Part shown: one piece after another, positions 11,979 to 53,019 of the stretch | How the letters are laid out: each line of letters opens with the position of its first letter | Position numbering within the stretch: position 1 is the stretch's first letter | Source of the DNA: Chloranthus sessilifolius | Taxonomy: Eukaryota > Streptophyta > Magnoliopsida > Chloranthales > Chloranthaceae | Direction of reading: 5' to 3' | NCBI GenBank assembly: GCA_021018995.1 | Contig: CM037591.1 | Span: forward strand, 73,621,901-73,685,900 | Length of the DNA: 64,000 nucleotides | Notes under the pieces: model-generated | Seen by the model: the letters and a program-made list of their open reading frames with translations, nothing else | The model's database searches: none | What the model was told of the DNA's origin: nothing | Translations under genes and position numbers: made by a program

Positions 11979-12145
11979 CTAGCGTGTGTAATACACACGC
12001 TAGTGCAAAATTTCCCAGATTTTACGTGGTATGTCTATTACACACGCTAACCCAAAAATCCCTAGGGCATGCTTAGCATGTATAATATAAATGCTAGGCC
12101 AATTACCTCCCATAATTGCCTAGCGTATATATTACACATGCCAGG
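11979..12145. promoter_or_regulatory. Four C-type palindromes upstream of antisense gene 1
   Basis: Copies at 11979-12003 (perfect: CTAGCGTGTGTA, one base, then its complement), 12024-12050 (degenerate), 12072-12098 and 12119-12145. Core arms are AGCGTGTG and CACACGCT around TAATA; several copies carry CATGTA-type arms. They lie 160-330 bases upstream of the start of antisense gene 1. A TATA-like word (AATAAATAG on the minus strand, near 12235) lies just beyond them, so the copies may be in the promoter or the 5' leader. B has four copies of its own palindrome at the same place. Confidence 0.7.
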
Positions 12146-12592
12146 CCAGAAATGCCACCAAAAAGAGAGAGGAGGATTTAGGGAGATTATTTTTTTTACC
12201 GGCCCTCTAGCCAGCCCACCTACACTTTCTGCTATTTATTCAAAGCACCCCAGATAACGTGATGGGATACTAAAAATTTTTATTTAACTTATATACAGTT
12301 TTTCTTTCAGGAACCATCCGCATAGACATGCAAGGTTTGGCCAGTATTGAACCAAATGCATGGCCCAAAGGTCCTTTTTCAACAAAGCCTGAGTCCACCC
12401 TACAGATAAAAAAGTATATCACGGCCAGAAGGAAGAGATGGAGCAAACAATAGAAAGGGAAAGCACTAACATTAATTCTAAAGCAAACCATCCGAAGTGT
12501 ATTCTCATATCATCCATTACATCTTCCTAAAAGAGAAAAGAAAAATATCCTAAGAGTCTCAAATATTCATCAAAAATAGAAAAAAGCTGGTT

Positions 12593-14946
12593 CTAATCAA
12601 TGCCTTTGGCCTTCTTGCACCGGTGCGAGGTGCTTTGATATGTCCAAATGTCCCCCATCCTTGACCATGCCTGGGAAAGCCTGCCGAGCAACGAGCGCGA
12701 CTCCTTCTCACGAGCACGCTGTAGATCATACCCAAAAATCATCAGTTGAGGTCGATTAATAGGTAAAGGGCAGCAAAGTAATAATCAGAGTCAAGCGGTA
12801 TAACACTTACCACTTCCACATCCCGAAGACTGGTGATGTGGCTATTGTACTCTGCTTGATTAACAGCCGACTCGTAATTCTACAACAAAGAAAGAGTAAG
12901 AAAAGTCAGCTCTAGGTGCCATAATACAAAAGCAAGCATTTTCCTGAAAAGGAAATACGATGAAAAGAAAACTCACCCCTTAGACCAGCTAAGGAGGGGG
13001 GACTTGAATCGCCTCAGTAGATAGGCGGGCCCGCTCAATCACATCCGCACACAAGTTTGAGAGGAAGGCATCGTCAAAGTGCCTGAAGCCCCCCTGAGTC
13101 TCTACAATCGAACTCTTAGAAACCCCCGTACCAGAAGGGTTTGAGGGTTCAACACCTGGAGCCTGCATCATCCTCATAAGAATCATCTCCCTTATCAAAC
13201 TGTAGAAAGACGCAAAGGCCTAGGCCATTAGATCAAAATCAAATCAAAACCATCAGGAACCTACATAAAGGAAGAGGAGGATTACCTGAGATCGTGGACA
13301 GCCAAAGTCCAAAAAGTTGGCACCAGGTACAAAGTGCGAAAGGATGGACTGGTAGGGAAGGGACTATTACAACATCAAATACCCTCCTTGCTAAAAAAGA
13401 TCATCATCGGGGACCCTGTGGTGGAGGAGCTCAGTTGAGAGCTCCTCAATCGTACCCTCGGGAGATATGACATCCCCAAGAGGACCCCGTAACACAATAA
13501 AATAATCTCGGTACTGATGCACTACTCTCTCCCAAATAGTAGGCTCTGACCCAAGCACGGTAGAAAAGGATAACCTAACAGTCCACGAACAGTCGGGACT
13601 AGCCCACGAACAGTCGGGACTAGCCCACGGCAACTCGATTCCAAAAGGGAGAGCCGACGTAAGGATCAAAGGTGATCTGGCCAAATAAAGAGAGTCTTAT
13701 TAGTCAAACAAACATCACCAAAAACAAATCTTATTGAGAAAGAGAAAAGGGAAATATCCATACCTGCTCTGGGATCAGCAAACAAAATTGAGGCATCAAG
13801 CCCAACTCCAAATTCTTCATTCCCATGTCTCTACAACGGCTCTTATGCCAATTGCTCATGAAGGGATAGGTGAACTCATCTGAGAAAAGGAGGGGGCGGC
13901 CCGGTTGAAAATGTAAGTATCCCCAGATCTGAAAGGAGCAGGCATGAAAATAAAGGGAATAATAAATAATGAACCAAGAGGAGTAAAAGAGTCAGGGGTT
14001 ACCTCTATCACATGCCAAAAACTGAGAACAAAACCTAAGTCCCCAACAGAAGCTCGAGCCAAGTTGGCCATCAATATGGCGTATCCAGCGCCGCCCCAAT
14101 CATACCGATGCACATTATCCCAATTTCCCATAAGGTTGAGTAGGGACAATGAGACCCAGCCACAACTAGCAGTGGCAAAAAGATTCTTGCCTAGGAGAAA
14201 GAGGAGCGAGATACGAGCCAACATCAATGCACATTCTGACTTAATAATGATATCCATGTCCGAGTGGTTCTGATCCACCAATTCATTCTCTTCAAATAGA
14301 TCGGCCAACCAGGATAGCTTGACCTCGCAGCCGCTCATATCCCAGGAGGAGGGGTAATCCCCAATCAACTGAACCACCTCGTCTTGATCTGGTACACAAA
14401 GGCCAGCCATCGGTATACCCCCCATCCCGATCCTGTGGTCATCGACCAGTCGACTGGGGTGATGGTCATCCCGGCCATTGACATAAGGAAGGTCATGGTC
14501 TCGGGCCGAAATCGTTCTACCAGGGCCTTCACATAGGCCGAATCGCCCATCATGGTAGGGCACGAACGAAAGTCCTTGAAGCCAGCCTGGGCCAAGAGGA
14601 ACCTCATAACCATAGGGAGGAAGATATAAAGACATTGGAGGTCGTGCCAACCTCCACGAAACATGATTGAGGGCAAAGACGACTGTAAAATGAAGGAGGT
14701 GTTAGGTACTAGAACAAAGAAAGCTTGCATAAAAGGAACCAATAAAAGATTATTTCTTACCTGACCGGCGATCCCACAATTAGAAATGTGGGTGTACTAT
14801 TGGTGGTGTAACCCACTGCAGGCTACCTCGCCCTGCATCTCATACCAGATCTGGGATGAATGCTGCACCGGGATAAGCTGCTGCCCGAGAAAACCGTAGA
14901 TCACCTCAGGACCACCCTCATGACCTTGCTCCTCTTCACTTGACAT
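12593..14946 (-). pseudogene. Antisense gene 2 of element C: plant mobile domain (PMD) gene with introns
   Basis: The likely start MSSEEEQGHEGG is at 14946 and the end HRCKKAKGID at 12593, a basic tail as in B. The PMD signature is clear at 13856-14742: FRPETMTFLMSMAGMTITP, then ALMLARISLLFLLGKNLF, then MGNWDNVHRYDWGGAGYA. PMD proteins of the MAIN/MAIL family act in gene and transposon silencing in plants. Five minus-strand splice donors (GT complement at 12809, 12975, 13284, 13762 and 14759) match donors in B in place and context, so the captured gene kept introns. Broken as a protein. Confidence 0.75.
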
Positions 14947-15480
14947 CCTAAAAAGAGCACAAGCTGTGACTGTTAGGAGAATATCAGTATGGGGAAACCG
15001 ATTGCTACAGGTCTAAAGAAAGTAAGTATGCCCCCTTTTATTCATTATCAATCATGATCATCATCATTTTGGTAAGAACATCAAGAGGGGCGATCCCAAA
15101 GCGGTCCCCCACATTTAAAAAAAAAAAACAACAAATAAAACATATATAAATTAGTTTTCAAAAATCCATGTGTGGATACAAAAAAATAATCACAGAAAAT
15201 CATCTAGATCCAAAAGGCCCTAGTCACGCCAACAAATAGTCCAAGAAAATCTAAAAAAAAGAAGAAAGAATAAAAAAGAAAAGAATAGAGGGAAAAAGAA
15301 GAGTAGGGCACCATTCAATCAAGTTTTCCACTCAAATCAACGCCGATGCATAGAAAATCAATAAAATGGATCATAGACGATCATACTTATAGAGAAAATC
15401 ATTCATTTATGATCTAAAAAAGTAAGAATCCTAACCACAGTGAAAATAAAGCAAGACAAATCAAAAGAAATAGGGTTAAG
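14947..15480. other. Intron or spacer of antisense gene 2, element C
   Basis: A-rich sequence (notably 15100-15310) with no coding signal on either strand. It lies between the first coding exon of antisense gene 2 and a conserved leader block at 15490-15660, so it is probably the first intron of that gene. Confidence 0.4.
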
Positions 15481-15820
15481 AGATGATTACTTGGAAGAAG
15501 GAAATAAACCCTTGATCCGGCATAGAATATGCATAGGGTCGGTGAGAGTAGACGTCGGTGTAATGTCGAGGTTCAAATCGATTCAATGAAACCCTAGGAG
15601 GAGGTTCCGGTTCAGTTTAGAAAGAGGGGGAAGAAAATATTTTGAAAAGTGCCCTTTTTTGCTCGGACCCGATTGATTTAAAACCTTTGTCTGGTCTAAC
15701 ATATATAATATACACGTTAGGCTTGTTTTTTGCTAGATTTGGCCTGGCATGTATAATATACATGCTAGGCATAAACCTACTAGATTTGGCTTGGCATGTA
15801 TATTAAACATGCTAGGCTTA
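15481..15820 (-). promoter_or_regulatory. Leader and promoter region of antisense gene 2 with three C-type palindromes
   Basis: Bases 15490-15660 align with 49395-49590 of B (shared AACCCTAGGAGG word and purine-rich runs), with a possible donor at the left edge, suggesting a leader exon on the minus strand. Directly upstream on that strand are palindromes at 15695-15721, 15743-15769 and 15790-15817. The middle copy has arms GGCATGTA and TACATGCT around TAATA. B has two copies of its own type in the same place (49622-49690). Confidence 0.6.
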
Positions 15821-16034
15821 TTCCCCCTAAGGCACAAGAAATTACACATGCCCCCAAGGAGCGCATCAATCTCCATTTGACCTGTTCGGGAAGTTGTGCT
15901 AAAATAAATGGTTTAGGATCAATGAAAATCCCGAGCAAACAAAATAAATATAAAATAAAGGAGAAAAAAAAAACTACATATATAAAATATCAAAAAATAT
16001 ATATAAATATATATGTGTAACTTTCAAAAAGCAG
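15821..16034. other. AT-rich spacer, element C
   Basis: A-rich non-coding sequence with runs of AAATAA and ATATAT near 15950-16020. I see no gene or defined repeat. Confidence 0.5.
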
Positions 16035-16595
16035 CATGTACTCCTAAAAAGCGTTGCGACATCAATTCGCTCCACTCTGATAGCCATGCTAAATTAACTT
16101 TGGGATTGATGGGTTTGCCCAAAGACCTTGAACCTTGCCTCACGCAGGGGCACCCGTGCCTGGTCAAAAAGGGCAATCAATGCCTCATATGATTACACCT
16201 AAACTGTGGATCATCATGTTTTTATCTCGCGCCTGTCTTTAAGTACGGGTCGATCACCCTCTCGGTCACGAAGTTATTTTATTTAAAATGAAACTTGGAC
16301 ATCAAAAATCTTCAATCATCTCGAGAAGCAGACATTTTCGCAGCATATTGGGCTTTTACAACTCGCACCATCTTGGTTATGCCCAGTAATGTCGCTAAGC
16401 GCTTGGGGACCAATAGCCTTGAGGAACGGATATTTTTCTTGACATACAGGGCTTCCGTTTACTCACCATGTTACCACCTGATATATGAGGTTCATTTGGA
16501 ATACAATGGAGCCGTCAGGCTTGCCTTGGGCCTCTTCAAATGTCTCTTATCCTTGGCATTAGATCATTAGTGATCGGATACCGAAGAGGGGCATC
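16035..16595 (+). other. Conserved pre-LTR block and polypurine tract, element C
   Basis: About 560 bases that align well with 50765-51338 of B, better than the sequence on either side. It ends in a purine tract and GGGGCATC (about 16581-16595) just before the LTR. Both copies hold a short reading frame in the same register with shared words SSREA(D/N)IF, VMP(S/N)NVAKRLGT and LE(E/K)R (C: 16295-16570; B: 51026-51223). It may be a 3' untranslated region needed for replication, with the frame open by chance. Confidence 0.6.
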
Positions 16596-17011
16596 TTTAG
16601 ACATCCAAATTTGGCCTAAGGCCCAATTGAACATACTTCTAGAGGGGCACACACCTGAGCTTTCGATAACATCTCCCATACCCTTAGGAACCTTCCCAAA
16701 CCCTTAGAACCTTATCTAAACCCTTAGAAATTAACCCCAACCTATAGAACCCTCTTCAAACCTATTATTGACCCTCCTGGGCAGTGGTGGGGCGGAGGTG
16801 TGCCAAAGCTTGTGGGGACCTTTGCTGAAACTATATCATATACCATTGGAAAGTAGAGATTCCCAGCTTTCAAACAAGCTAAGAATCACCTTGATCTGAG
16901 TCCTACACCGAAAGTTATGGCAATCCAATGTTTTAGGCCTAAAAACTGCATTGGAGTGAACCCCTAGATAGGTTCTGAACCTCTCGAGAACCTCTAGAGG
17001 CTTTGGGTATG

Positions 17012-17211
17012 CTTAGCATGTAAATTATACATGCTAATCCATTTTTGATTGAAATATTTCCTAGCGTGTTTATTATACATGATAGGCCTTGTTTTTCACT
17101 GTTTTGGCTTGGCGTGTACTATACACACGCTAAGTTTGATGGCCCCCCTAGCGGGCTCTGAACTTCTCGAGCACTGTACATATGCCTAGTGTGTGTAATA
17201 CATATGCTGGG
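17012..17211. promoter_or_regulatory. Four C-type palindromes in the LTR of C
   Basis: Copies at 17012-17037, 17060-17086, 17108-17132 and 17185-17211. Arms are of the AGCATGTA or AGCGTGTG type with a TAATA, AATTA or TATTA centre. They lie in U3, several hundred bases upstream of the TATA box at 54014 once element A is set aside. B carries its own palindromes in the same part of its LTR. Confidence 0.7.
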
Positions 17212-17442
17212 CTTAGCTATAGTAATTCTTGGATTTTCCCCGAAAATGGATTTTAGGGTTTGACTTGTTGACCATCCCAATGTTTAGGGTGGGTTTCATT
17301 AGGACTGTTGCACCCTCATTTACCCTATTTATAACCCTCTAGTCATTTGAACCCCCACTCTATCATCTTCCATTGAACCCCTTTCCCACATATCTAAGCT
17401 CCCAAAACCCTAGGAAACCTTAGATTGGGGATTACCTAATTG

Positions 17443-17447
17443 CTAAT
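17443..17447 (+). repeat. Target site duplication of element A, left copy
   Basis: CTAAT directly before the LTR of A. The same five bases follow the 3' LTR at 53969-53973. The flanks join into LTR sequence of C that matches B (GATTACCTAATTGCTAA and CCCATTAGCTC). Confidence 0.9.
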
Positions 17448-38853: not shown

Positions 38854-39780
38854 GAGGCAGTATGGTAGCAGCAATGGCTATGCTCCAAAAGTGGGGCTAC
38901 CAGAGAGGCAGAGGGCTTGTGCCTAGATTATAGGGCAGAAGAGAGCCAGTTATTACCAAGGGACAGAAAGTAAGATTTGGGCTAGGTTACAAGCCCACAG
39001 AGGAAGAGGTTCGAGAGGCTAAAGAGAAAGCCAGGGTCGCTGTAGCTGCAAGAGCTCAAGGAATCAACATAGAAGAGAAACCTCGCCCTAGGCTGAACAT
39101 CAGGGAATCCTTTGCTAGCACTGGGGTCATAAAGATCGATCGAAATGGGGTAACCCATTTGACCCCACACAAACCCACAACCCCAATACATCCCACCAAT
39201 CCCCAGATCTCCCTTCTAAGCCAGGAAATAGATTTGGTTGCGTTGTCCCTCTTCGAGGAACGACAGCCAGCACCTGAACAAACACTCCCTGTGGTAAATC
39301 ACCACAAAATGGTATTGACATTTGAGGACATCATCTCGGACAAATTGGGGATCAATATGATGGAGGCTGACTCCAATAAGCCATATCAGTCAACACCCTC
39401 CATCCCAACAGGTAAAGGAGCGGCCCCTCAGGTACGCAACTCGACATCTTTGCCCCAAACTTTAGAAGCAGGGAGTTGCCTAAAGTTTGGCACCTGTTTC
39501 CCTAAAAAAAATAACCTATAAAAAGTGAGATAAGCCCTTGGCAGGCAATACCTTGTATAGCAACCCGCCTTGCCAAGGGTCCATCTCCGAAGAAAATAAA
39601 AATCTCAAAAACATGGAAAAAATACAAAATCCCAAAAATATTGCAAAAATCCAAAGTCCAAAAATATCATCATTTAAAATTCAAAAAAAAGTCCCATAAA
39701 GGGATGTCTTAATCGAAATACTTGTCCCACATCAAATCGACCCCTTCCCTATAGAAATACAATAAGAGGTAGGTGTTACG
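38854..39780 (+). pseudogene. G-patch and linker to RT, element B
   Basis: MLQKWGYQRGRGL followed by a glycine and RREPV, at about 38879-38955, fits the G-patch pattern, and VRFGLGYKPTEEEVREAK follows. The rest links to RT, with MMEADS words shared with C. Bases 39530-39720 are A-rich. G-patch after a retroviral-type protease is known from betaretroviruses. Confidence 0.6.
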
Positions 39781-41345
39781 AGTCTGGACGAGAATGGTCC
39801 TTTGGAGGATCTCTCCAATGAGCTCCTTGACCGGTTCTCCAACATTGAGCATGGCCCTACCCCTGTTGTCAAAGAGATAGAGGATATCAATCTAGGGACT
39901 GAGGAGATTCCCAGAATAACTAAGATCGGAATGTCACTATCTCTCGAAGAAAGAAAAAGCATGATTGAATTCCTTCGGTCATACCAAGACATTTTGCCTG
40001 GTCCTATGAGGACATGCCTGGTCTGGACACTGATTTGGTTAAGCATGAGTTGCCTCTCTACCCCGATATGAAGCCGGTTAAGCAGAAGCTGAGACGTCTC
40101 CGAACCGAGTGGATGTTGAAAGTCAAAGATGAAGTCATCAAGCAGTATGATGTGGGGTTCCTCATGGTATCCAAGTACCCACAGTGGCTAGCCAATATTG
40201 TGATGGTGCCGAAGAAGGATGGAAAGGTTCGTATGTGCATTGATTTATGCAATTTGAATAGGGCAAGCCCGAAGGACAATTTCTCACTACCACACATCGA
40301 CATCTTGGTCGATAAAACTGCTAAGCACGGGATGCTTTCATTTATGGATGGATTCTCAGGATACAATTAGATAAATATGGCAGAGGCTGATCGGGAGAAG
40401 ACTGCATTCATTACTCCTTGGGGAACCTTCTACTACAAAGTCATGCCGTTTGGGCTAAAGAATGTCAGTGCAACGTACCAGAGAGCTATGACTATGCTAT
40501 TCCATGACATGATGCACCAAGAGATTGAGGTGTATCTTGACGATATGATAGCCAAGTCACCGGAGCGAAGTGACCATCTCGTAAACCTTCAGAAGCTATT
40601 TGAGAGGTTGAGAAAGTACAGGTTACATCTAAATCCACAGAAGTGCGCTTTTGGTGCTATGTCCAAAAAATTGTTAGGATTCATCATCAGCAGGAGAAGG
40701 ATCGAGGTTGACCCAGTCAAAGTCAAAGCCATCACTAAATTGCCACCGCCGTTTACTAAGAAAGAGGTTAGAGGGCTCTTGGGTAGAATACAGTATATCA
40801 GTCGGTTCATTGCACAGCTAACTCTAATCTGCACGCCAATCTTTAAGCTATTAAGGAAGAACTCGCCCTTTGAATGGAACAATGACTGTCAGGCAGCGTT
40901 CGATAAAATCAAAAGCTACCTCCTTAACCCACCTGTGTTGGTACCACCCGAGCTAGGGAGATCACTCTTGATGTATCTTTCCAAGACAAAAGTTTCGATG
41001 GGATGTGTCTTACGTCAGCATGATGAGACCGGAAGAAGAGAGCAGACCATCTACTATCTGAGCAAGAAATTGACTGATTATGAGACATGCTATTCTCATA
41101 GGGAGAAAGCATGCCTAGCTCTTGTATGGTCTACTCAGAGGCTCCGCCATTACTTATTATCCCAAGCCGTTTTACTCTTACCCTGCATTGATCCATTGAA
41201 ATACCTGTTTGAGAAGCCCGCTCTCACTGGGCGGACTATACATTGGCAGCTCTTATTATCTGAGTTCGATATCACGTACATCACTTAGAAGTCGATTAAG
41301 GGGCAGGCACTAGCCGATCATCTTGCCGACAATCCTTTTCTAGAT
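39781..41345 (+). pseudogene. Reverse transcriptase and RNase H, element B
   Basis: RT words in order: MPGLDTDLVKHEL, KVRMCIDLCNLNRASPKD, LSFMDGFSGYN, MPFGLKNVSATYQRAM and the catalytic YLDD at 40533-40544. The thumb follows, then RNase H (KVSMGCVLRQHDETGRREQ, LSKKLTDYE, HREKACLAL) to about 41290. Long parts are open, including 304 codons at 40377-41288, but the whole is broken in a few places. Confidence 0.85.
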
Positions 41346-41399
41346 TATGAACCTTTAAGAACTGAGTTTTCAGATGAAGATATCTTGTTCATGACGGAA

Positions 41400-42018
41400 G
41401 ACGATACTGAGGAAGCAGAAGAATCATGGGTAATGCACTTCGACGGGGCAACAAATGCTGAGGGCCAAGGATTTGGTGCCATCCTGATTTCACCAAAAGG
41501 ATCCCACGTACCCGTCTCTATCAAGCTCAACTTCCTTGGAATATGAAGCTTTGGTAGCTGCGGCTCTCGATCTAAATATAACTCACCTTTGAGTGTTTGG
41601 TGATTCACAGTTAATCATATGCTAGACGAATGGTGATTAGAAGATGAAAGACAAGAAATTGATCCCTTATCATGAACACCTCATGGATCTGATAGCTTGC
41701 TTCCAAGACATGACATTCTCATATGTCCCCCAAATAAGGAACCATTTTTTCGATGCACTAGCAACTTTGGCATCAATGATAGAAATCCTATATGGTGCTG
41801 AGATGAAGCCGATCATGATCGAGCAGAGAAGTGAGCAGGCCTTCTGCCTCCAGATTGAGGAACCTACAAAGCCTGATGATGAGCCACCTTGGTTCTCAGA
41901 TATCAATAATTTCCTCGAGACGCTAACTTTCCCTGAGGGTACGTCCAAGATGGACCGGCGAACCATTCAACGTTTAGCGACAGGCTACGTCATTTGTGGG
42001 GAATGCCTTTACAAATGA
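41400..42018 (+). pseudogene. Second (archaeal-type) RNase H and connector, element B
   Basis: WVMHFDGATNAEGQGFGAIL opens the domain, with EYEALVAAALDLNITHL and VFGDSQLI after it. These are the D and E/D blocks of the second RNase H of Tat elements. The connector (AFCLQIEEPTKPDDEPPWF) ends near CGECLYK, just before integrase. Broken. Confidence 0.8.
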
Positions 42019-43140
42019 TCCTACAACAGCATTCTACTTAGGTGCCTTACTGAAAGTAAAGTGACCAACATCATGAAGGAGATCCATGAAGGAGTATGCG
42101 GAGCTCACGTCAGCGGTCACATGCTTGCTAAGAAAATTCTGCGGCAGGGATACTTTTGGACCACTATGGAATCGAATTGCTGCAAACATGTTCAGAAATG
42201 CTATAAGTGTCAGGAACACTCTAGTCTGATACATTCTCCTGCCATCGATCTACACTGCATGACCATTCCTTGGCCATTTGCTACCCGGGGCCTAGACATC
42301 ATCGAAATGATTAATCCAAAATCATCAAACGAGCATCGGTTCATTCTCGTCGCCATTGAATACTTCACCAAATGGGTGGAAGCAGCGTCATATGCCAATA
42401 TCACAGTCGGTCATGTTGAGAAGTTCCTCAATAATAATATTGTGTGCCGATTTGGAGTCCCCATAGATATCATCACAGACAACGGCACAAATTTTACAAA
42501 TAAGGGCATCCGAGCCTTTTGCGAGCAATACAAAATCAAGCACCATCGCTTGTCACCTTATCGACCTCAAACTAATGGAGCCGTAGAAGATGCAAACAAG
42601 ACGGTCATCTGCATCCTCAAGAAAATGCTCGTCACTTATCGAGATTGGAGCAAAATGCTGCCGTTTGCTTTGTGGGCCTACAGAATGTCAATCCGTACTG
42701 CTATAGGGATAACACCATTCTCCCTTGTGTATGGAACTGAGGCCATGCTACCAATAGAGGTTGAAGTACCCTCACTCTGAATCCTCATGGAATTAGGCTT
42801 ACCCGAAGAGGAGAGAGAAAGATCATGCTTTGAATAGTTGAACTTATTGGACGTGAAGAGACTCCTAGCCTTGTGTCACACTCAAGTTTACTAGGGGCGA
42901 ATCACAAGCGCTTATAATAAATGTATTCGCGGTCGAGATCTAAAGGTAGGAGACACTGTGTTGAAGAAGATCTTTCCATCCCTCCACCCCGATCCGAGAG
43001 GAAAGTTCCAGCCAAACTAGGAGGGGCCTTACGTCATTTGAGAAGTGCTACCGGGATACGCCATCCGCCTCGCCACCATGGACGAAGATCATCTTCCTGA
43101 GCCCATCAATGCCAGATACGTTTGACGATTATACTCTTAG
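42019..43140 (+). pseudogene. Integrase, element B
   Basis: HHCC zinc end: HEGVCGAHVSGHMLAKKI and CYKCQEHSS. Catalytic core: RGLDIIE, IITDNGTNF and GAVEDANK, the D, D and E positions. A 240-codon part is open (42061-42780); the carboxyl end continues to about 43140 (PEPINARYV). No chromodomain. Broken at the end. Confidence 0.85.
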
Positions 43141-43769
43141 TCTATTATGATAAGGTAAGTATTGGTGAAACAAATGCGTGACTGCTTAAGAATCACCCAA
43201 AAGAGGCCATCATTTCAAACACAGTAGCCAAAAAGTATCCTTAAAAAAGATGATTTCCTTTACTACCCCATTTCGAGCCTGGGCCTTTCTTTCAATAACC
43301 CCCTCTCCCAAAACAAAATGTATGTATGTACATACACAAAAAAAGAAAGAAGTGAAATTACCATCAAAATCTAAAAAATTAGAAAACCAAAACCTCAAAA
43401 AGAGATTGCCTGAAATAAAATGATAAGAATAAAGAATCACGAGGCATGTACAGTTGAACCCCCGAGGAAGAAAGTATGTTGAGAAAATTGAAGCCGTATC
43501 AAGGAAACCCTTTTAGCCCAACATACCTTCAAATCCTAACCTAACCCATGGCCAAGCTACACCCTGAAGGATGCCCTCTTTGTAGGTTCACAAGCAGTCA
43601 TAGCATCTGTTAAGTCAACACAAGCCGAGTTGTGAGACGACACCAGAACCCCATCCAGTCGGCTACAATGGAATCAACGTCTATGTCGTGGCTTTTTTTT
43701 TATAAAAAGAGAAGAAAGGAGAAATAAAAAGAAAAATAAAATAAAAATACAAGCTCAAAGCAAGATGGA

Positions 43770-43910
43770 CGTAGTGAAAACCCGAAAGAGCACTATGGGT
43801 AAAAATAGCGAGTTTGTGCGGACCAAGTGAAAACCCGAAAGGGCGCTTGGGGTAAGAAAGCTAAACCTATGGACGTGAAAACCTGAAAGGGTGCCACGGG
43901 TAAAAAAGGG
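43770..43910 (+). repeat. Three imperfect repeats around GTGAAAACCCGAAAGGGC, element B
   Basis: Units start near 43773, 43829 and 43874, each GTGAAAACC(C/T)GAAAG(A/G)G followed by a GG word and GGTAA(A/G)A. They correspond to 9017-9210 in C. Confidence 0.7.
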
Positions 43911-44246
43911 AGATAAATAAAAAGAAAAAAAAAAGAGAGAAAAAGTAAAAGAAAAGAGGGGTTTGGAACGAGTGAATGTTTAAGGAACCCTCTTTGTTAC
44001 TCTCCCTAACCTCTTTTAGGGGCCGCTCATGTTAGTTCGAATCAAGTCCAAACCAGAATTGTTTTCATGAAATTGCTTTGTCAAACGTATGACTCAAGGT
44101 AGGGAGAAAGGTTTGACTCGATCCAAGGGGATGGACGTTCCGGCCTTGGTAAGACTTTTGAAACTCTTTTAGAATCAACCAGTCAAAGAGGGGTTCGACC
44201 ATGCTCAAAAGAGGACCCAGGGTTTCACAAGGTGATTAAGGCACTG

Positions 44247-44249
<3 letters not shown>

Positions 44250-44305
<56 letters not shown>

Positions 44306-44306
44306 G
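44250..44306. repeat. TA microsatellite
   Basis: About 28 TA units with one interruption (TACATA) near 44286. Confidence 0.9.
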
Positions 44307-44499
44307 CACAAAACAAAAAGACCAAAAAGTCCATGTAGATATATATAATCTAACTACCTTTCATTTATAAAATGCACCGCTTACACCACATCCCAAAAAA
44401 TACCCGGTATGACGACTAGCGTGCTTTCCTTTTTACAAATAAACAAAAAATAGCAAAAACATGAAGAAAATATGTATACAAAAAAATGTGTATATCTGT

Positions 44500-45329
44500 A
44501 AAGGGGTTTCAAAGCTGACACATCGCCCTGTGGAAGCAACTGGCATCTACCCAGAAAGCACTGAACCACCTCACCTCGGGCAATATAAAAGCGGGGCACA
44601 GGCCCCAAGACAGCGAGGTGCTCACCCAACCAGACCTGAATCAACAATGGGCACCACCGAAGGCCCTCCACCTTGCCTAAAGCAAATGAATCAAGGCCTC
44701 AATACAGCTTGGCGAGCACCAAATGCATCATGGATCGGCCCGCCTCCAGGTCCGTCAAAATATCACAAATTGCCAATGAGAAGCTCTCCCCCCAGTAAAG
44801 AAGAGGATTTCAAAGATGGGACCGAGTGCTAGAGCTTTTACATTGAAAATATTCCTAATCGGCATCTTCGGAGGCTTTTGTCATCGAAAAGTTCTTTGAG
44901 GAATTTTAGCGAACACCTCGTGGGCCCCCCAATGAGACTTTTCTCATACTCGAGTTTCTTCAAACTGAGAGTAAGGTGAACGGATTTGGAGTAGCCTGGC
45001 CAGGGCATGACTCTTGCAAGGCCCCTGTGAAGCTTTAGGCCAGATAGATTGGATAGCTCCTCAAGGGTTGGGGTTAGCTCCCACTTCCCAAAATGGAATA
45101 CATGGGAATTCACATCCCAAAATGAAGCGACAGCGAAAAGGAGTTCCCACCATGGAGGAACCTCTAGAAAGGAAGGAAGGCGAAATATCCCAAGGTGGTC
45201 CAAGTCGGCGAGCTCACTCTCATTCAAGCTCCCAAACCAGGCTGTTAGAAATTTGCGCCCTAGGCCCAAGGAAGGGGGTAAATTGGCTCCAGGCCCTCCA
45301 CGTAAGGGAGGGTTAGAAAGCGGGTCCAT
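44500..45329 (-). pseudogene. Antisense gene 1 of element B (DUF7745-like), shorter than in C
   Basis: Starts MDPLSNPPLRGG at 45329 and shares LNESELADLDHLGIFRLPSF, SFWDVNSHVFHFGKWEL and PTLEELSNLSGLKLH with C. The frame is open upstream of this ATG, but the shared start argues for 45329. VWLGEHLAVLGPVPRFYIA near 44600 matches the downstream part in C. The stretch after that is shorter than in C. Family name from memory; role unknown. Broken. Confidence 0.6.
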
Positions 45330-45497
45330 GAACGTACAAAGATCTTCTGAGAAGACAAAAATTGATGTATGGTGATGGACCCGCCTTGGAAAAGCAAGAG
45401 CAAAAAGAACCGGTAAAAAGGGCCAAGTCAAACAAAAAAGAAGTGATTTTTGGACTAACTCGGGTAATAAGGACCCACTGCTCCCTAGGTTAAACAG

Positions 45498-45662
45498 GGC
45501 ACAACTTTTAGTTGCGTCAATGTTTTTCTCCCCTAGGTTGATCCTGGCGCAACTATTAGTTGTGCCAGCACATTTTGGTTCCCATTTATGCCTGGTGCAA
45601 CTAATAGTTGCGACAGTACATATTTTCTAGGATTTCAACCTAGCGCAACTAATAGTTGCGCC
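45498..45662. promoter_or_regulatory. Four B-type palindromes upstream of antisense gene 1
   Basis: Copies at 45498-45518, 45546-45566, 45594-45614 and 45642-45662: starts exactly 48 bases apart. They lie 170-330 bases upstream of the antisense start, the same distance as the C-type copies in C (11979-12145). Confidence 0.8.
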
Positions 45663-46027
45663 ACACTACAGTCCCCCTCTTTAGCCATCTCAGGACCCAG
45701 CTGTGGGGACTTACACCCCTTTTGTTTTTTCACACACCTCCTTTCACTAACAGTTTGGCAATTATTTTGTTTATTCATATGTAGGACTTATCCTACATCA
45801 AAGCATACACCCAAGGAGTCACTTTCTGGGAACATTTTGGGCAAACACATCCTGCAGAGAAACAGGTTCGATGCAAAGAAATCATGGCATAAAATCAAAG
45901 CAGAAATACTAAAAATATTTTCTAAAAATAATGATCCAAAGTATCACATCAACAATCCCCAAAATGATTAAACAAATCCAAATCAAATTCCAAAGAGTAC
46001 TGAGTTTTCAAAACAAAAACTAAAAGC

Positions 46028-48448
46028 CTATTCCTTGCTAGCGCCCTTTGATTTTTTTGCGACGGCGAGAGGAGCTCTGGAAGGTCCGAATGTCCCCCAC
46101 CCTGGACCATGCCTGCAAGATCCTACTGAGCAAAGAACGCGACTCCTTAGCACGGGCATGCTGTAAGGCACAGTCAAAGTCAAGAGTCAGGATCAGTTAA
46201 GGGACAAATGATAATGAAATGAATGAGAGGAGTAGAGCAGTAAGGTACTCACCATCTCCACCTCCCTAAGCTCTGCATGATGACGATGATACTCTGCATG
46301 TTCCATGGCTGAGTTGAAGTCCTACGTTCAGAATGATATAACATTAGTTATCAGGGTAATCTTAAAGCATGTGCAATAGGAGGCTGAAACGGAAAGAGAT
46401 TGGGCGTCAGCAGACTTACCCTTAGAACCACCTTAGGAGGAGGGACACGGGCTGCCTCAGCAGAAAGCTACGCTTGTTTATCCACATCAGCGCAGAGGCT
46501 CGAAAGGAAGCTATCGTCCAGGCGTCGGAAGGTCTCGTAAACCACAGGTGGATCACCACCAGGGATACCAGCATGAGAGGTACTTGACGGACCAGCACCC
46601 GAAGAGCCCTCGCCCGAGGGACCCGCACCAGAAGGACTAGCACCAGAGGGATCTACCCCTGACATATCAGCTACACTAGGGCCGCCTTCCCCATCCGAAT
46701 CATCCCCTAGAGCAAACTGTGAACAGAACGAAGATTCGCTTAGAAGGAATGAAGGACCAAACTAAAGCATAAAGGGAACTAATCTAAGCTAAGAAGAATT
46801 ACCTAACCGAGTGGGCTACCGAACATAAGAAAATTAGCGCTAGGTACAAAGTGCAGAAAGATAAACCGATACTGCAGACACTCGTACCAAAGATGATAGT
46901 CCCCGGGCACATGGAGAGCATGGATGGGAAGCCCATTGTTGAAGAAGGCTATGGTAAGCTCCTCGATACTGCCAATGGGATACCAAACATCCATCAGAGG
47001 GTCCACAAGTATGGCATAATAATCCAGGAATTGGGGCACCACTCGCTCTCCCAGATAATAGAATTTAGCCCATGCTCCATAGAAGAAAACGACGCGACGA
47101 TTGTTAAATAGGCAGAAAGTGCCTACAGCTGCTCGGTCCCAGGAGGGGGATGCAAGGTACAGGTCAGGGAGGATCTGCCCAAGTAAAAAAAAAGAATCCA
47201 AGCAATTAGCACATTAGTAAAAGGAGAATTTCGAGCTAAGAACAAACAAAGTTGAAAGAGAGTTTTACCTGCTCAGGAACCATCAAGTCGAGTTGGGACC
47301 TCAGACCCATCTCCAAGTGCTTTAAACCTACATCGCGATGCCGGGCCTGATTTCAGCTGCTGAGGAGGGGATAGGTGAGCACCTCTGAGAAAAGAAGCAG
47401 GTGCCCAGGGTGAAAGTGATGATATCCCCATACCTTAAAATGGGGCATTGCACAAGAGTGGGTCAGTAGCATATATGGATCATTCAAAAAAACAAATGGC
47501 AAAGGCAAAGGAGTGAGGAATTATCTCCAGGGCAGCCCAAAATCTAATAACAGACTTTGAATCCCCGGTCGTGACCCGAGACAAATTGTACATCAACCAC
47601 ACATACCCTACCCCTCCCCAGTCCTACCTGTGGACATCACCCCAGTTGTCCATCACCCTCAGCAAGGATAGGCTGACTCGGCCACCGCTCACATTGGTAA
47701 AAAGGGTCTTACTGAGCAGGACCAGGAGAGTGATGCAGGCTAGGGCGATCGCCGGCTCCGGCGTGATGTAGAGCACCCGGTCCGACTGACCTAGATCCAC
47801 TAACTCATCAGGTGTATAAAGTGAGGTCAACCAAGACATCTTGACCTCGGTGCCATGTGTCTGCCTGCGAGGAGGATAGGCCCCAATCAACCGAATGATG
47901 TCCTCTTGACTCGGCACCGCGAGATCGGATATCGGTATCCCCCCTATCCTGATGCCAATAATCATGGCCTAATCGACGGGCGTCAAAGTCATCTCTGCGT
48001 ACGACATGTGAAAGGTCATTGTCTCTTGGCGAAACTGTTCAATCAGGGCTTTCAGATAGGTAATGTCAGCCCTCATGGCGGGGCAAGATAGAAATTCTCT
48101 GAAGCCCACCTGTGCCAGAAGGACCTTTACTACGGGAGGGACGTAGAGGTAGAAATCTTGGAAGTCGAGCCACCCGCCACGGAATACAATGTTGGGCAGG
48201 TCTTGCACCCAAGAAAATGTGCATCAGATCACAAGGGCAAAGCAAAAACTACATAATGGAAATGAATTGAACCTCTCTTTTACCTTGCCCACTATCTCGA
48301 ACTTGGTGAAGGAGGCCGGCTCAGGCGGCCTTGCCTTGCATCTCGAGCCACGGGCCCGCTCTCCGATCTATCCAGATGAACTGCTCTCCCCGCGGGTCAT
48401 ATACAATCTTAGGCCCCTCTTGAAAATATGCTCAGCCTCACCCAACAT
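46028..48448 (-). pseudogene. Antisense gene 2 of element B: PMD gene with introns
   Basis: A likely start is at 48448 (MLGEAEHIF) and the end, KKSKGASKE, at 46028, a basic tail as in C. PMD blocks: FRQETMTFHMSYAEMTLTP, AIALACITLLVLLSKTLF and MDNWGDVHR (47624-48208). A Ser/Gly/Pro-rich part (GASPSGAGPSGEG) lies near 46600. Splice donors on the minus strand (GT complement at 46251, 46418, 46801, 47267 and 48283) correspond to those in C. Such a gene could interfere with the host MAIN/MAIL silencing pathway, which is inference. Broken. Confidence 0.75.
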
Positions 48449-48509
48449 TCTGGGGCAACAAGAAGCAATCACGTCAGAGCAGATCAATGATAAAGAGCCA
48501 TGATATTCT

Positions 48510-49193
48510 CTGCTACAAAAGGGAGGTAAGCATGCTCACCCTTCCCCTTTCTTTTCACATATTTTCATAAATGAGAGATACACATGCCTAAACAAAAAAA
48601 GAGATCCCTTTTAGGTTGAAAATGCAAAAAAAATCTTTCTTTAGAAAATGGCAAAAAAAATAAAAAAATTCCCCTTCCTATCTTTGAAAATGAAGCAAGT
48701 TAGAATCAAATAAAATCATTCTTTTATGTTTCTAAAAAATAATAAAAAAAGCCCTTCTTTTACACTTAGAAAAACAAAAAAAAATCCTCCCTTTATGTCT
48801 AGGAAAATAAAAGCAAAAAAAAAGGAGAGAAAGAAATCATCATCACGCTTCAAAACAAAAAAATCTTTCTCTTCTCCTTAGGTCCCAAGGAAAAAACAAG
48901 CAGCCATTTCTTCATGTTCCTAAACATAGAAAACCAAAAACAAAAAAAATTTCTTTCCTTTACCTTATTCACAAAAGTAAAAAAAATAAAAATTAAAATA
49001 ATAATCATTTACTTTGTTTGTCAAAATAAAAAGTAAAAACCAAAAATAAAAAATTCTCTTCACTTTACTTTGCAAATAAAAAAAAATCAACCAAAAATCC
49101 TTTGCTTTATTTTAATGAAAACAAAAACAAAAAAATTTCTTTGCAAAAAATATAAACCAAAAAATCCCTTTCCATATACACAAATAAAAACAA

Positions 49194-49224
<31 letters not shown>

Positions 49225-49240
49225 TAGGCACCAATAAATC
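48510..49240. other. A-rich spacer or intron, element B
   Basis: Very A-rich with AAAATAAAAA and pyrimidine words; a TA microsatellite lies at 49198-49222. It occupies the place of the probable first intron of antisense gene 2. No gene seen. Confidence 0.6.
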
Positions 49241-49394
49241 CATGAAATAACAAAATAGGACATGGTTCATGAAGAATCATCCACACTTCATCAATAAACA
49301 TACACACCATATAAATAAACCATTACTCATCAAAGAATACAGGATCATGATTAAATCTACAAGAAAAAGCAAGAAAAATCAAAGAAAATGGGTT

Positions 49395-49690
49395 TTAATG
49401 GTTACCTTTAGAGGGAAAAGGGGTCTTTGATCTAGTGTGACCCGACGATCGATCCACACAAGCAAAGCAACGTCAATGGGGCACACGTAGAGGCAATGTA
49501 AAGGAACCCTAGGAGGGGGGCAGTTTTCGGCTTCAAAGAGGAAGGAGGGGGAGAAAATTTTGAAATAAAGGCCCGGCCAAACTGTAACTAAATTGCTAAT
49601 TTCAAAATGTTTCCATTGCTTGGCGCAACTAATAGTTGCGCCAAGCGAAATGTTTCCCACCTTTTGCTTGGCACAACTATTAGTTACGCT
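49395..49690 (-). promoter_or_regulatory. Leader exon and promoter region of antisense gene 2 with two B-type palindromes
   Basis: Bases 49395-49590 align with 15490-15660 of C; a donor (AAAGGTAACC on the minus strand) lies at about 49403. Just upstream on that strand are palindromes at 49622-49642 (perfect, arms GGCGCAAC and GTTGCGCC) and 49670-49690, again 48 bases apart. Confidence 0.6.
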
Positions 49691-50764
49691 AGGCTATTTT
49701 GAGGCCCCTAGGCCGGGTCTTGGGCCTGGTACGGGCCAAATGGGAAGACCGGTCCCCCTACTCTTTTTATTTATTCTGTCGCTCCCCGCAGATGCACGCA
49801 CTCCCAAGGCGGCATTTCGATCATCCTTCGAGTTGCCAAGAGAGCCATGATAGAGTAAGAGTAGATCGAGATCAATGAGCATCCCAGTCCTACACAAGAA
49901 AATATAAAGAAAAATCCAAAAAAATCCCCACAGAGAAGCCGGAAGTAGTCACAAGAAAAATCCACATAAAATAATAGCTTCAAATTTCCAAAAACAATCA
50001 CATAAAATAATAACTTCAAAACTCCAAAAAAATCACATAAAATAATAGTTGAAAATTTCAAAAAATTGCATAAAATAATAGAAAAATCAAACACAGATTT
50101 GTATTCCCCACAGAGATGCACAAGCATAAGGCGGTAAAACGTCAATATTTTATCCGCAATGCAGTTGTGCCACACTAAAGTTCTGAGTCAGAGATTCACC
50201 TTGGATTTTTGGACCCTACTTTAAGGAAGGAGCAAGCGATATCAAGCATCCAATGTTTGATCGAGTCAACTCGCTAAATCTTTGCGATGAAGCGTTTGAT
50301 GTGAACTTAAGTGTCTTAATCTTTAGATTCTCTATTGGAAAAGGTCAATCGTTGGTTGAGACCAACCTGTTGAGAATGAGATTATGTGTCAATCAAACTA
50401 TGTGCAACCATGCATTCATAAGGGTTCATTTCCCTTTTTTTTTCTCTAGGCTTAAAACGGGTATGGGCAGTGGTATCCCTGTAAAGTGTACGCCATGCGT
50501 CTGGGTATTTATATGATGGTTGTTTATCCCCGTAAATTATACCTGGGTGGGTCTGGGTCAGGGCTTCTATCACCTTCGTTGTTACTTATTACCCCTGATG
50601 GGTGCATGATTATGCATAGTTAATTAATGTTTTTGATCATTGTCAGCAAAGACAAGGATTGGATGTCCCTTCATGGAGATACCCCAATATTTCGTTGGAT
50701 TTGTTCAAGGTAATCAAAGCTGGATGCTCTAGGCCATGTTAATCTAAGGCATGCTTTTGAAAAT
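49691..50764. other. Spacer, element B
   Basis: About 1.1 kb not found in C. It includes the 35-base tandem repeat at 49963-50085. I see no gene in the remainder. Confidence 0.5.
49963..50085 (+). repeat. Tandem repeat of 34-36 bases, element B
   Basis: Four copies of CACATAAAATAATAG or close variants start at 49963, 49999, 50034 and 50068, each followed by a TTCAAA and CCAAAAA-like word. Confidence 0.75.
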
Positions 50765-51338
50765 AGCACGCACTCCTAAAAAGCATTGTGAGATCTATTC
50801 ACTTTGCTCGGGCAGTCATGCTAAATAAACTTCAAGGTCGATAGGTTCGCCCAAAGACCTCGAACCTTGCTTTCAGCAGGGGCACCTACGAACTGTCAGA
50901 TGGGGCCATCAAATGCCTCGTACGATTGAACATAAACTGTGGAGCCTTGCGTATGCTTACTTCACACTTATCTTTGAATCTGAGTCGATCCCTCCCCTTT
51001 TACTCATGAAGCTGTTGCATTCAGAATGAATTTTAAACATCAGATACTTTCAAAATCATCCAGAGAAGCGAATATCTTTCCCGACTGTAGGGAGTTCGCA
51101 ACTCATTCCACCTCGGTTATGCCCAATAATGTCGCTAAGCGCTTGGGAACCGATTACCTTGAGAAACGAATGTTTAGCCTGGCATCCCAGGGCTTTTATT
51201 TTCTCATCGTGTTACTCATTTGATGTTTGAAGTTCATTCTGAATATAGCAGACCCGTCAGTAATGCCTTGGGCCTCTTCAGATGTCTCTTTTTCTTTGGC
51301 ATTTGATCATTAGTGATCGGATACCAAAAATGGGCATC
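50765..51338 (+). other. Conserved pre-LTR block and polypurine tract, element B
   Basis: Aligns with 16035-16595 of C (shared ACTCCTAAAAAGC, CGCCCAAAGACCT(C/T)GAACC and GTCGCTAAGCGCTTGG). It ends in CCAAAAATGGGCATC at 51324-51338, the likely plus-strand primer, directly before the LTR. Confidence 0.65.
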
Positions 51339-53019
51339 TGTAGAGACCCAAATTTGGCCCAAGGTTCGATCGAAACACCTTTCGAGAGAGGTGCAATTCT
51401 GAGCTTTTGATGACATGCATGGAACCTTTAAGAACCCCCCTAGAACCCTTAGAAACCTTTCCAAACCCTTAAGAATTACCTTAGATCCCTTAGGAATCTG
51501 ACCCAAACCTTTAAAAATCAATCGCGACCCTTAGAACCCATTTTGGACCTAAACCTAACCTCATCAAGAAAATGGTTGAGGAGGGGTGCATAAAACTAAC
51601 TACATCCCTCTACTATGATTGATTCTTATACCATTGAAAAAGTAGAGGTTTTCAGCTTTCCAACGGTCCAAGAATCGCCCAAATCGGAGGTATACATCAA
51701 AAGATATGGCAAATCGTGCCCGAAGGACATAAGAGTAAAATCAAGTGGCCCCCCTAGGGATTTGGCGCAAGTAATAGTTGTGCCAGGCTATTTATCCCCA
51801 GAAATGGCCTGGCACAACTAATAATTGTGCCAGTGATAATTTTGCCTGGCACAACTATTAGTTGCGCCAGGCCCCTTCTCCCAGGATTTAAGCCTAGCGC
51901 AACTAATAGTTGCGTCAGTATTAGTTGTGGACCCCACCCTCGCGAGCTAACTTCCAGGCACTGTTTAAACACTGTGTTACTGTACATTTGCCTGGCACAA
52001 CTATTAGTTGTGCCAGGCATATGAACAGTAACCTCTAGATTTTGCCCCAAAAATCGTGATTGGGGTTTGACTTGTTGACCACTTTGACCTTTGGGGTGTG
52101 TTTTGCTAGTTCTATTGCACACATTCCCTACCTATTTGCAACCCTTCAAGTGGCTTAAAGCCTCACCCCATCATCCACCATTGGAGGACTTTCTCACACA
52201 TTTTAAGGCTCTAAAAACCCTAGAAAACCTTAAATTTGAGATTACCTAATTGCTAAACCCATTTAGCTCCTTAGTGATCTCCTAATCCACCCATTTCCTA
52301 TAAATAGAGACCCCCACCCCTTGGTTTAAGGGTTGAGAATTTTTCTTAAGAGAGAAAGAGCTCAAAGTGAGAAGTTCTTCCTCCCTTTATGCACCATTTT
52401 TCACCTAAATTCCAGAATTCCAAAACCCCTTTCCAAGCTTGTTCTTACATCCAAAACCCTTAGCCTAGTTGTGTGTGATCCTCTAGCCTCCCTTCTCCAC
52501 CTCTTAGCTTTAAGTCTTAGGATTTAAAACCCTATTCCACACCATACAAAGCCTTCAAGAGCTCATCAAAGCAAGCCATGCAAGGCTCTCCTACGGTGCT
52601 ACAAGGGCCGGAGGGCTCCGACTCTCCCCTTTCTTCTCCTATCTCTTTCCAGCTCCCTCCATCCTCCCATTTGTGCCGTTATGCCGCCGACGTTTCGATA
52701 GGAACAGAGGGGCACAAATAGGATTCTAAGCCCTTTTGGGTAAGAGGAAGCTATTTTCTTCATTTTATTTTTGGCCATTAGTAGAGACCGCATTAAGCGG
52801 GTTGATCAGGTGCCTAAAACCTTTCTGATCGATAACCGAAGCCCCTACCCAAGAGCCTTTGGTGTGGACCGGATTCAGAGTTATATTTTTAGCACTACGG
52901 TGCTCATAAAAATGAACTAGGTTTCCTGGGACACCGAAAGCTCTGGGTGGCGACTCTATATTTTTTTGATAGAGAGCGCATTGTCGCGACAAGACCGTCT
53001 CGGATCCCACAGTTGCACA
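51339..53019 (+). repeat. 3' LTR of element B
   Basis: Starts TGTAGAGACCCAAATTTGG and ends AGTTGCACA. It is about 77 bases longer than the 5' LTR, mainly because it has two more palindrome segments. TATA box at 52299-52307. Confidence 0.9.
51764..52014. promoter_or_regulatory. Five B-type palindromes in the 3' LTR of B
   Basis: Copies at 51764-51784, 51811-51831, 51848-51868, 51896-51916 and 51994-52014. The second and fifth have no counterpart in the 5' LTR, where the flanking words are joined directly. Confidence 0.8.

Follow-up and report, generated by a model that had tools for sequence, protein, structure and literature searches.

The 64-kb window, as we call the whole stretch of DNA analyzed, contains two related LTR retrotransposons, termed B and C (Table 1). 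Element B is bounded by a 5-bp target duplication (CCTCT, 31554-31558 and 53020-53024), and its Pfam domains follow the gypsy order, with RVT_1 and RT_RNaseH and then rve downstream. The 3′ LTR of C resumes at 53969-54731, past nested insertions, as judged by self-comparison. A second, archaeal-type RNase H (RVT_3), a marker of the Tat clade (PMC9289625), was matched at E = 3.5e-17 in the relative L061, and at E = 0.037, below the cut-off, in B itself. We infer that B and C are Ogre-like Gypsy elements, their Ogre placement being drawn from size and PMD-like genes.

Table 1. Features of elements B and C in the 64-kb window.
Feature	Position	Strand	Evidence or content
Element B, putative Ogre-like (Tat-clade) Gypsy, 21.5 kb	31559..53019	+	LTR pair and ends by self-comparison; Pfam RT/RNase H and integrase
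B 5′ LTR	31559..33162	+	sequence comparison
B 3′ LTR	51339..53019	+	sequence comparison
B reverse transcriptase, RNase H, weak second RNase H, integrase	40371..42777	+	Pfam
B antisense gene 1 (broken), PMD/DUF7745-like N-terminal part	44841..45338	-	Pfam, below cut-off
B antisense gene 2 (broken), pieces resembling the PMD-like protein of C	46806..48295	-	tblastn, 42-50% identity
B U3 cluster, 5′ LTR	31981..32090	.	3 CAAC-type palindromes, pattern scan
B leader cluster	33974..34141	.	4 CAAC-type palindromes, the fourth with one CATG half
B cluster upstream of antisense gene 1	45496..45664	.	4 CAAC-type palindromes
B cluster upstream of antisense gene 2	49620..49692	.	2 CAAC-type palindromes
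B U3 cluster, 3′ LTR	51762..52016	.	5 CAAC-type palindromes
Element C, part in the window	1802..17446	+	self-comparison; similarity to B starts at 1802, end is a break in the 3′ LTR
C antisense gene 1, 207-aa open frame, PMD-like	11222..11842	-	Pfam PMD E 3.5e-5, below cut-off
C antisense gene 2, PMD-like, at least 2 frames	13295..14796	-	Pfam PMD E 9.1e-5 and 3.9e-5, below cut-off; similarity to B
C cluster upstream of antisense gene 1	11979..12144	.	4 TGTR-type palindromes
C cluster upstream of antisense gene 2	15696..15815	.	3 TGTR-type palindromes
C U3 cluster	17013..17210	.	4 TGTR-type palindromes

The products of both antisense genes resemble PMD proteins, and the assignment is taken no further than PMD-like: the best PMD (PF10536) score, obtained with pieces of broken genes as queries, was 23.6 bits against a Pfam cut-off of 34.9. 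Antisense gene 1 of B matched DUF7745 (E = 8.3e-5) and PMD (E = 0.0047), both below cut-off. The gene 1 products of B and C are 63% identical across 161 aa, with dS ∼1.2, and the median dN/dS of 0.21 (all 210 pairs of the sampled family) shows that purifying selection acts on antisense gene 1 (dN/dS ∼0.2). In the antisense frames scanned, Pfam matched PMD/DUF7745 and returned neither a convincing known DNA-binding domain nor a VANC-type family. Searching with antisense protein 1 of B as the query yielded no match among 651 candidates, and a profile of that protein (B and C) gave nothing against PDB at E up to 5.

A pattern scan (≤5 mismatches in 21) placed 18 CAAC-type sites in B and 11 TGTR-type sites in C, with none of either type elsewhere in the window, in agreement with the numbers and matching places given in a preliminary description of this DNA. 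The same scan of three shuffled windows yielded 1, 0 and 0 B-type and 3, 2 and 1 C-type sites. A stricter frame finder recovered 23 sites in the window, every one of them within B or C, and none in any of ten Markov controls. CAAC made up 29 of the 36 half-sites of B (the rest being TAAC 3, CAAG 2, CAAT 1 and CATG 1), and TGTR 15 of the 22 half-sites of C (the rest being TATA 2, TGTT 2, TGTC, TTTA and TATG). The types had been reported not to cross, and indeed no CAAC half was present in the 11 sites of C and no TGTR half in the 18 sites of B, although minority halves do exist in both (7/36 and 7/22).

The unit is a 25-bp palindrome, CTNGC-N5-TAWTA-N5-GCNAG, with arms of at least 10 bases, and of 12 in many sites. 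The arms had been described as 8 bases long, but perfect 8-base arms occur in just 5 of the 29 window sites. The 5-base centre is present as described, except that TATTA is used as well as TAATA (one or the other in 17/18 sites of B and 9/11 of C). At matching clusters, the inner four bases are 6% identical between B and C and the outer six bases 62%, with the centre in common. Hence the arms are not "wholly exchanged", as had been stated: the swap is confined to the four inner bases of each arm, whereas outer frame and centre are kept.

Genome-wide, the frame was counted 21,056 times, compared with 333 in the reversed control. A frame one base shorter per arm (wrong spacing), which serves as a yardstick alone, gave 9 sites against 18 in its own reversed control. 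The core types counted were CAAC (9,336), TGTR (3,464), TAYR (18,639 vs. 18 in the control) and CATG (1,518 vs. 0). The motif strings were not found in the literature searched. Just 36 CAAC/TGTR hybrid palindromes exist in the whole genome, and CAAC-TGTR neighbours number 12 pairs compared to 9,136 for CAAC-CAAC; random mixing of these two types is thereby ruled out in the material examined. Mixing does occur between the sister types CAAC and CATG (e.g., L053/L062), and also among TATA, TATG and TACA. The apparent mixing at L040/L041, a CAAC-type LTR with TGTA sites outside its start, is best read as nesting. Among the neighbouring clusters listed for contig C1, where TAYR was treated as a single type, 22 of 22 agreed in type, whereas 2,000 shuffles gave a mean of 7.9 and at most 15. 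An element family thus mostly carries one four-letter core. The earlier idea of a recognition system that changes all at once stands to the extent that, at the cluster level, there is one type per element and several clusters change together, as the rare hybrids and the 22 listed neighbours indicate; the mixing within the CAAC/CATG and TATA/TATG/TACA sets goes against it.

Neighbouring sites are spaced at 37 bp (7 cases), 47 bp (34) or 48 bp (27) across loci, with none at 38-46 bp. Among 50 listed pairs, with 37-53 bp allowed, the spacing was 37-38 bp (6) or 46-48 bp (44); this tally takes the plus-strand rows from listed pairs, and one minus-strand row outside it gives 49. Half-site and spacing tables omit L003, L006 and L041, which overlap other loci. 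The two spacing classes differ by about one DNA helical turn.

Twenty loci were sampled (L001-L008, L039-L043 and L053-L059, the last set chosen for new arm types). At 19 of them, L054 being the exception, the sites lay in DNA similar to B or C, which rules out a dispersed repeat independent of these elements; palindromes equally common outside the elements, the finding that was to count against the preliminary description, were not what we observed. On the tree of antisense gene 1, arm type requires 2 changes, the minimum for three types, when 18 of the 21 rows are counted (L053, mixed, and L073 and L079, without sites, being left out), and 5 changes compared to a minimum of 4 when "mixed" and "none" are scored as states of their own. 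On the LTR tree (17 rows, omitting L003 and L006 as overlaps, L040 and L041 as partial, and L061+L058, whose LTR match is too short), TGTR and TATA each need at least 2 changes (gains or losses). Arm type tracks the phylogeny of antisense gene 1 and, broadly, that of the LTR. A comparison of arm types with the antisense protein tree had been suggested as a check; arm type does follow the gene 1 tree, but this is expected for any gene of the element, because plain descent gives it.

Of the 18 sampled copies of antisense gene 1, 16 had palindromes upstream and the other 2 had none within the 450 bp upstream. A cluster had also been assigned to the region upstream of antisense gene 2, and its position is as stated, but the detectable end of that gene lies ∼0.9 kb (C) or 1.3 kb (B) away. 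In the sampled element L061+L058 sites are present and neither antisense gene was detected, so that the sites do not depend on a gene in cis; the factor may be supplied by another copy.

We judge the chances to be about even that the palindromes serve as operators for a factor that acts as a dimer, is probably encoded by the element itself and changes its specificity all at once. Binding, dimeric state, promoter function, reader and effect are all predicted, whereas the sites, their positions and types, the scarcity of mixing, the spacing rule and the conservation of antisense gene 1 are observed. According to this model (i) each palindrome would be bound by a protein dimer, one subunit per arm, with the outer CTRGCG and the TAWTA centre contacted by unchanging parts of the protein and specificity carried by the inner four bases of each arm; (ii) the element would keep the same site near every transcription unit, namely in the U3 for gag-pol, in the leader and upstream of both antisense genes, so that a single factor could switch on, or keep unsilenced, the entire element; and (iii) the most likely reader would be one of the two antisense PMD-like proteins, as an activator or anti-silencing factor that also acts on its own promoter. 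As families diverged, the reader and every site would then have changed in concert, leaving each family to act on its own copies.

Host transcription factors could bind the palindromes instead, different element families having drawn on different members of a single family of host factors with a common dimer geometry, and purifying selection keeping the sites alike. LTR elements commonly rely on host factors, and the symmetry, the spacing classes one helical turn apart and the positions beside genes are the signature of a protein site; the persistence of sites in an element without detectable antisense genes also fits. We nevertheless consider host recruitment unlikely, at perhaps one chance in four, since several core types with one outer frame and centre coexist in the genome and the LTR tree requires two or more changes for TGTR and likewise for TATA, whereas a host factor would be expected to keep its preference, so that repeated switching of all sites would require repeated recruitment within the same frame. 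A hairpin role in RNA or single-stranded DNA has much less to recommend it and seems very improbable to us: the inverted repeats enclose a 5-base loop and hybrids are scarce, but pairing alone would let the sites drift by compensatory change, whereas one sequence is seen per element, and spacing classes one DNA turn apart fit duplex DNA.

Homogenization by another process, the alternative offered in the preliminary description, would here mean unequal exchange, conversion or template switching without a recognition function. Linker cores are indeed somewhat more alike between clusters than shuffled ones (0.41 vs. 0.35 in B and 0.46 vs. 0.38 in C; no shuffle among 500 came as high for either element). 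Of 171 linker pairs, a set that includes 5′/3′ LTR copies, 52 are similar at p ≤ 0.03. The 47-bp units probably have an old common origin, and the slight likeness of the linkers implies that this shared origin plays a part too. Copying of whole units is improbable, however, because the linkers, which should travel along, are nearly unrelated while the inner arms agree at 89% (B) and 77% (C); the matched changes on both arms, the fixed frame and the agreement of clusters kilobases apart would also be left unexplained. Least probable of all, in our view, is that each family merely inherited palindromes that already differed, with no maintenance since. Arm type does follow the phylogeny of gene 1 and, broadly, of the LTR, as inheritance predicts, but gene 1 of B and C has diverged to a dS of ∼1.2, a distance at which non-coding DNA free of constraint loses its sequence; the linkers nearly did, and the arms did not.

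Among known palindromic systems, the repeated-motif (RM) boxes of Sireviruses (Bousios et al., 2010, PMC2829016) come nearest to the putative operator sites. The palindromes of B and C, like those boxes, are family-specific and clustered in the LTR and upstream of an extra gene; the sections of that account we cite name no single binding factor for the boxes. In contrast to B and C, which have a gypsy pol, Sireviruses are Ty1/copia elements. Their boxes share a CGG-CCG core and vary in length, whereas the B/C motif has no such core, is fixed at 25 bp, holds the outer CTRGCG and TAWTA centre constant and varies at four bases per arm; further sites lie in the leader and upstream of each antisense PMD-like gene, at 47/37-bp spacing.

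The preliminary description had named VANC of the VANDAL transposons (Hosaka et al., 2017, PMC5735166; Sasaki et al., 2023, PMC10398659) as the nearest logic. As logic the analogy is fair, although the Sirevirus boxes, which it did not name, are nearer. Both VANDAL and B/C carry short element-specific motifs arrayed in non-coding element DNA that differ among related families and evolve together, and B and C thus share the VANC-type feature of clustered motifs changing between relatives. The VANC motifs as printed, however, are 8-9 bases long, non-palindromic and in one orientation, while the B/C sites are 25-bp palindromes. VANDALs are Mu-like DNA transposons with a VANC-family protein for which binding and demethylation were demonstrated; B and C are LTR retrotransposons, and their candidate protein is PMD-like.

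More tentatively, and with somewhat less than an even chance, antisense PMD-type proteins of giant Gypsy elements may be sequence-specific dimeric DNA-binding regulators that recognize a modular palindrome of 25 bp built from a constant frame and a four-base code, families speciating by switching code and reader, so that several mutually blind systems share one genome. If true, this would give retrotransposon PMD proteins a DNA-binding role and provide a retrotransposon counterpart of VANC. The palindromes of B and C also connect the boxes of Sireviruses with the motif arrays of VANC, two separate earlier observations that may be cases of one general strategy. Natural sites number in the tens of thousands, divided among several types that hardly mix, and permit a direct test of the antisense genes as recognition proteins, and the same genome lets one study how a transposon changes regulator specificity and all its sites at once.

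B and C resemble the Ogre lineage of Ty3/gypsy (Neumann et al., 2019, PMC6317226) in being very long elements with PMD-like extra genes, PMD being present in 57% of Ogre elements; the word stem "palindrom" is absent from the main text of that paper. Retand elements with the antisense gene TRP28 (Vicient, 2025, PMC11963269) resemble B and C in that antisense genes lie between pol and the 3′ LTR, a region that also holds tandem repeats, and in an antisense protein domain predicted to bind DNA, but TRP28 is not PMD and the elements are about half as long; the parts of that account covered here describe no palindrome family. Ikeda et al. (2017, PMC5418596) describe the PMD domain from both flowering plants and Gypsy elements, and PMD-A1 and PMD-A2 are described as exclusive to the latter (PMC5418596; PMC7156037). 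By weak Pfam match the antisense products belong to the same protein family as MAIN and MAIL1 (Ikeda et al., 2017, PMC5418596; Nicolau et al., 2020, PMC7156037), which differ in being host genes and whose own DNA binding is left open in the passages cited; some MAIN- and MAIL1-dependent genes have a promoter motif in common (PMC5418596; PMC7156037).

The genome scanned comprised 2.17 Gb in 32 contigs (the window being G000:C8:73621901-73685900). Self-comparison resolved a triple nest of elements C, D and B, in which C is the oldest, D sits in the 3′ LTR of C and B in the 3′ LTR of D. The LTR copies of D are ∼91% alike, and the frame finder returned zero palindromes in D, which makes it a useful negative control. 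As judged from its reverse transcriptase (RT), RNase H and integrase, B is a Ty3/gypsy element. The Tat clade is marked by a second RNase H, which is clear in the relative L061, with only a weak trace of it in B. Its 21-kb size and extra genes similar to the plant mobile domain (PMD), rather than a reference RT tree, suggest that B is an Ogre; PMD is reported in 57% of Ogre elements (PMC6317226). The RT family is large, with 95,894 first-look candidates in the genome, 129 of them scored.

Features located in the window, with the observation on which each rests
Feature	Position	Strand	Observation
Element D	17448-31558 and 53020-53968 (span 17448 to 53968, including B)		in the 3′ LTR of C; self-comparison
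Element B	31559-53019		target duplication CCTCT
Fourth leader site of B	34119-34139		one CATG half
Antisense gene 2 of B	46806-48295		recognised by similarity to C
Short tandem repeat array	55110-55376		near but beyond the LTR piece of C; self-comparison
LTR-like fragment	63648-63919	minus	resembles the ends of the B and C LTRs; may belong to another relative by the window edge

All palindromes of the preliminary description were recovered (18 of 18 B-type and 11 of 11 C-type sites), when a shuffled window gave 0–3 matches and ten Markov controls gave zero frame matches. The sites stood, but the proposed 8-base arms were too short: they extend to a 25-bp unit that reads CTGGCGCAAC-TAWTA-GTTGCGCCAG in B and CTAGCGTGTR-TAWTA-YACACGCTAG in C. 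Scanning the genome for the frame CTNGC-N5-TAWTA-N5-GCNAG gives 21,056 occurrences vs. 333 for the same letters reversed; with each arm one base shorter the count is 9 (18 in its own reversed control). Types are named by the inner four bases of the arm. The genome holds 9,336 exact 21-mers with core CAAC (B), along with 3,464 matches to the TGTR pattern (C), 18,639 to TAYR (18 in the control) and 1,518 to CATG (0 in the control), counts that are not comparable as shares because the patterns are unequal in length and strictness. The TAYR group is absent from the window; homotypic palindromes were seen for each of TATA, TATG and TACA, and hybrids among them made up 4 of 50 TAYR sites among the matches listed (by eye).

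Palindrome types rarely mix. Only 36 palindromes in the whole genome combine one CAAC and one TGTR arm. A CAAC site is followed by a TGTR site within cluster distance 12 times, and by another CAAC site in 9,136 forward matches. Hybrid CAAC/TGTR palindromes overlap 11 of the 12 mixed pairs, and in 11 of 12 the linker, with a TGTG half, resembles by eye the one preceding the fourth leader site of B. On contig C1, compared up to 69.36 Mb (114 sites in 79 clusters among the matches listed for four types, with TAYR treated as one type, exact cores required and decayed sites absent), neighbours within 200 bp were of the same type in 34 of 35 cases among the matches listed, the exception being CAAC beside CATG. 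At 0.5–5.5 kb, neighbouring sites agreed in 22 of 22 cases among the matches listed, vs. a mean of 7.9 and at most 15 in 2,000 trials when types were shuffled among clusters. Sites were of the element's own type in the GTATG element (5/5, two clusters) and in the GTACA element (L061+L058; 3/3, one cluster). At locus L055 the palindromes of both U3 and leader have TACA arms, with one TATG and one TACG half among them. The rarity of CAAC-TGTR mixing genome-wide supports the earlier expectation of one arm type per element, but strict purity is broken in the L053+L062 element, which mixes CAAC, CATG, CATC and other half-sites, and in C, which carries three TATA/TATG half-sites, one transition from TGTA/TGTG.

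Neighbouring sites at the loci start 37 bp (7), 47 (34), 48 (27) or 49 (1) apart, the next class being 78 bp or more. Fifty CAAC pairs among the matches listed on C1, where 37 to 53 bp was allowed, gave 37 (5), 38 (1), 46 (1), 47 (20) and 48 (23); these counts are not independent, the copies being related, though their linkers differ. The two classes lie about one DNA turn apart, as would be expected of proteins keeping rotational phase. A single distance of 29 bp was found in L054 (1987-2040), between two palindromes that keep the frame and have cores YCTC and CCTR; the DNA around the YCTC-core palindromes has no similarity to the window, and they perhaps represent an older or separate lineage.

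Homogenisation by another process had been proposed as an alternative to recognition. Compared across clusters, half-sites agree at their inner four bases by 89% in B and 77% in C; for linker cores the agreement is 41% (35% when shuffled) and 46% (38%), respectively, a level that none of 500 shuffles reached. From this modest excess in the linkers, an old common origin of the units is probable, with linkers since nearly decayed and arms retained. Gene 1, a minus-strand PMD-like gene, has a dS of about 1.2 between B and C, so unprotected DNA had time to lose sequence. We therefore argue that selection rather than copying probably keeps the arms alike. Arms described as wholly exchanged between B and C are so at the inner bases (6% agreement in matching clusters), but the outer six agree 62%. 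At the outer half-site positions, C-T and G-A differences account for much of the variation, a pattern that would fit decay of methylated cytosines.

In the gene 1 tree the three arm types need two changes, the minimum. The CATG rows form no supported clade, and mixed L053 falls between them and the CAAC clade, adjoining the latter, as would a transitional form. By LTR phylogeny the CAAC group, L062 included, separates with 100/100 support, and TGTR and TATA need at least two changes each, indicating repeated origin, loss or movement of similar codes. Palindromes lie upstream of gene 1 in 16 of 18 copies, 9 from each of two match listings (147, 150), picked non-randomly for identity spread and open frames. 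All 9 copies from the first listing had CAAC palindromes; of the 9 from the second, 4 had TGTR, 3 had CATG and 2 had no upstream palindrome. Median dN/dS of gene 1 was 0.21 (all 210 pairs of 21 copies), 0.20 for the 151 pairs whose labels differ (with "mixed" and "none" each taken as a label) and 0.35 within CAAC, where one pair reaches 1.17; the low values speak for a working protein for most of the family history. Pfam matches, from old, partly broken copies, fall below the cut-offs: PMD for C gene 1 (E 3.5e-5) and C gene 2 (E 9.1e-5 and 3.9e-5), and DUF7745 (E 8.3e-5) and PMD (E 0.0047) for B gene 1.

The symmetry of the sites, their fixed frame, the classes of spacing, their location next to genes and the way they change in concert make it likely that the palindromes serve a dimeric DNA-binding factor. 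Coexistence of several codes of one geometry in one nucleus favours a putative element-encoded factor, and one of the antisense proteins is the candidate reader, which might act in activation, autoregulation or anti-silencing. In the GTACA element, pol and palindromes are present and neither antisense gene was detected, so that action in trans, with this element perhaps dependent on other copies, or a host factor reading the palindromes is possible.

The preliminary description took VANC proteins as the nearest known logic. These are linked to YAGTATTAY or AGTTGTCC/AGTTGTAC motifs in tandem arrays (PMC5735166), but the nearest precedent is found in Sireviruses (Copia), whose LTRs carry element-specific palindromic boxes with a common CGG-CCG signature, in some also beside the ENV-like gene (PMC2829016); the palindromes here are thus no new category. 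That source identifies no single binder of the boxes. Retand elements are reported to carry antisense TRP28 genes with predicted DNA binding (PMC11963269). No description of the present palindromes was found in the mainly open-access literature searched. The centre GTATTAC of the TGTG, TATG and CATG types resembles the VANC21 motif YAGTATTAY, probably by chance.
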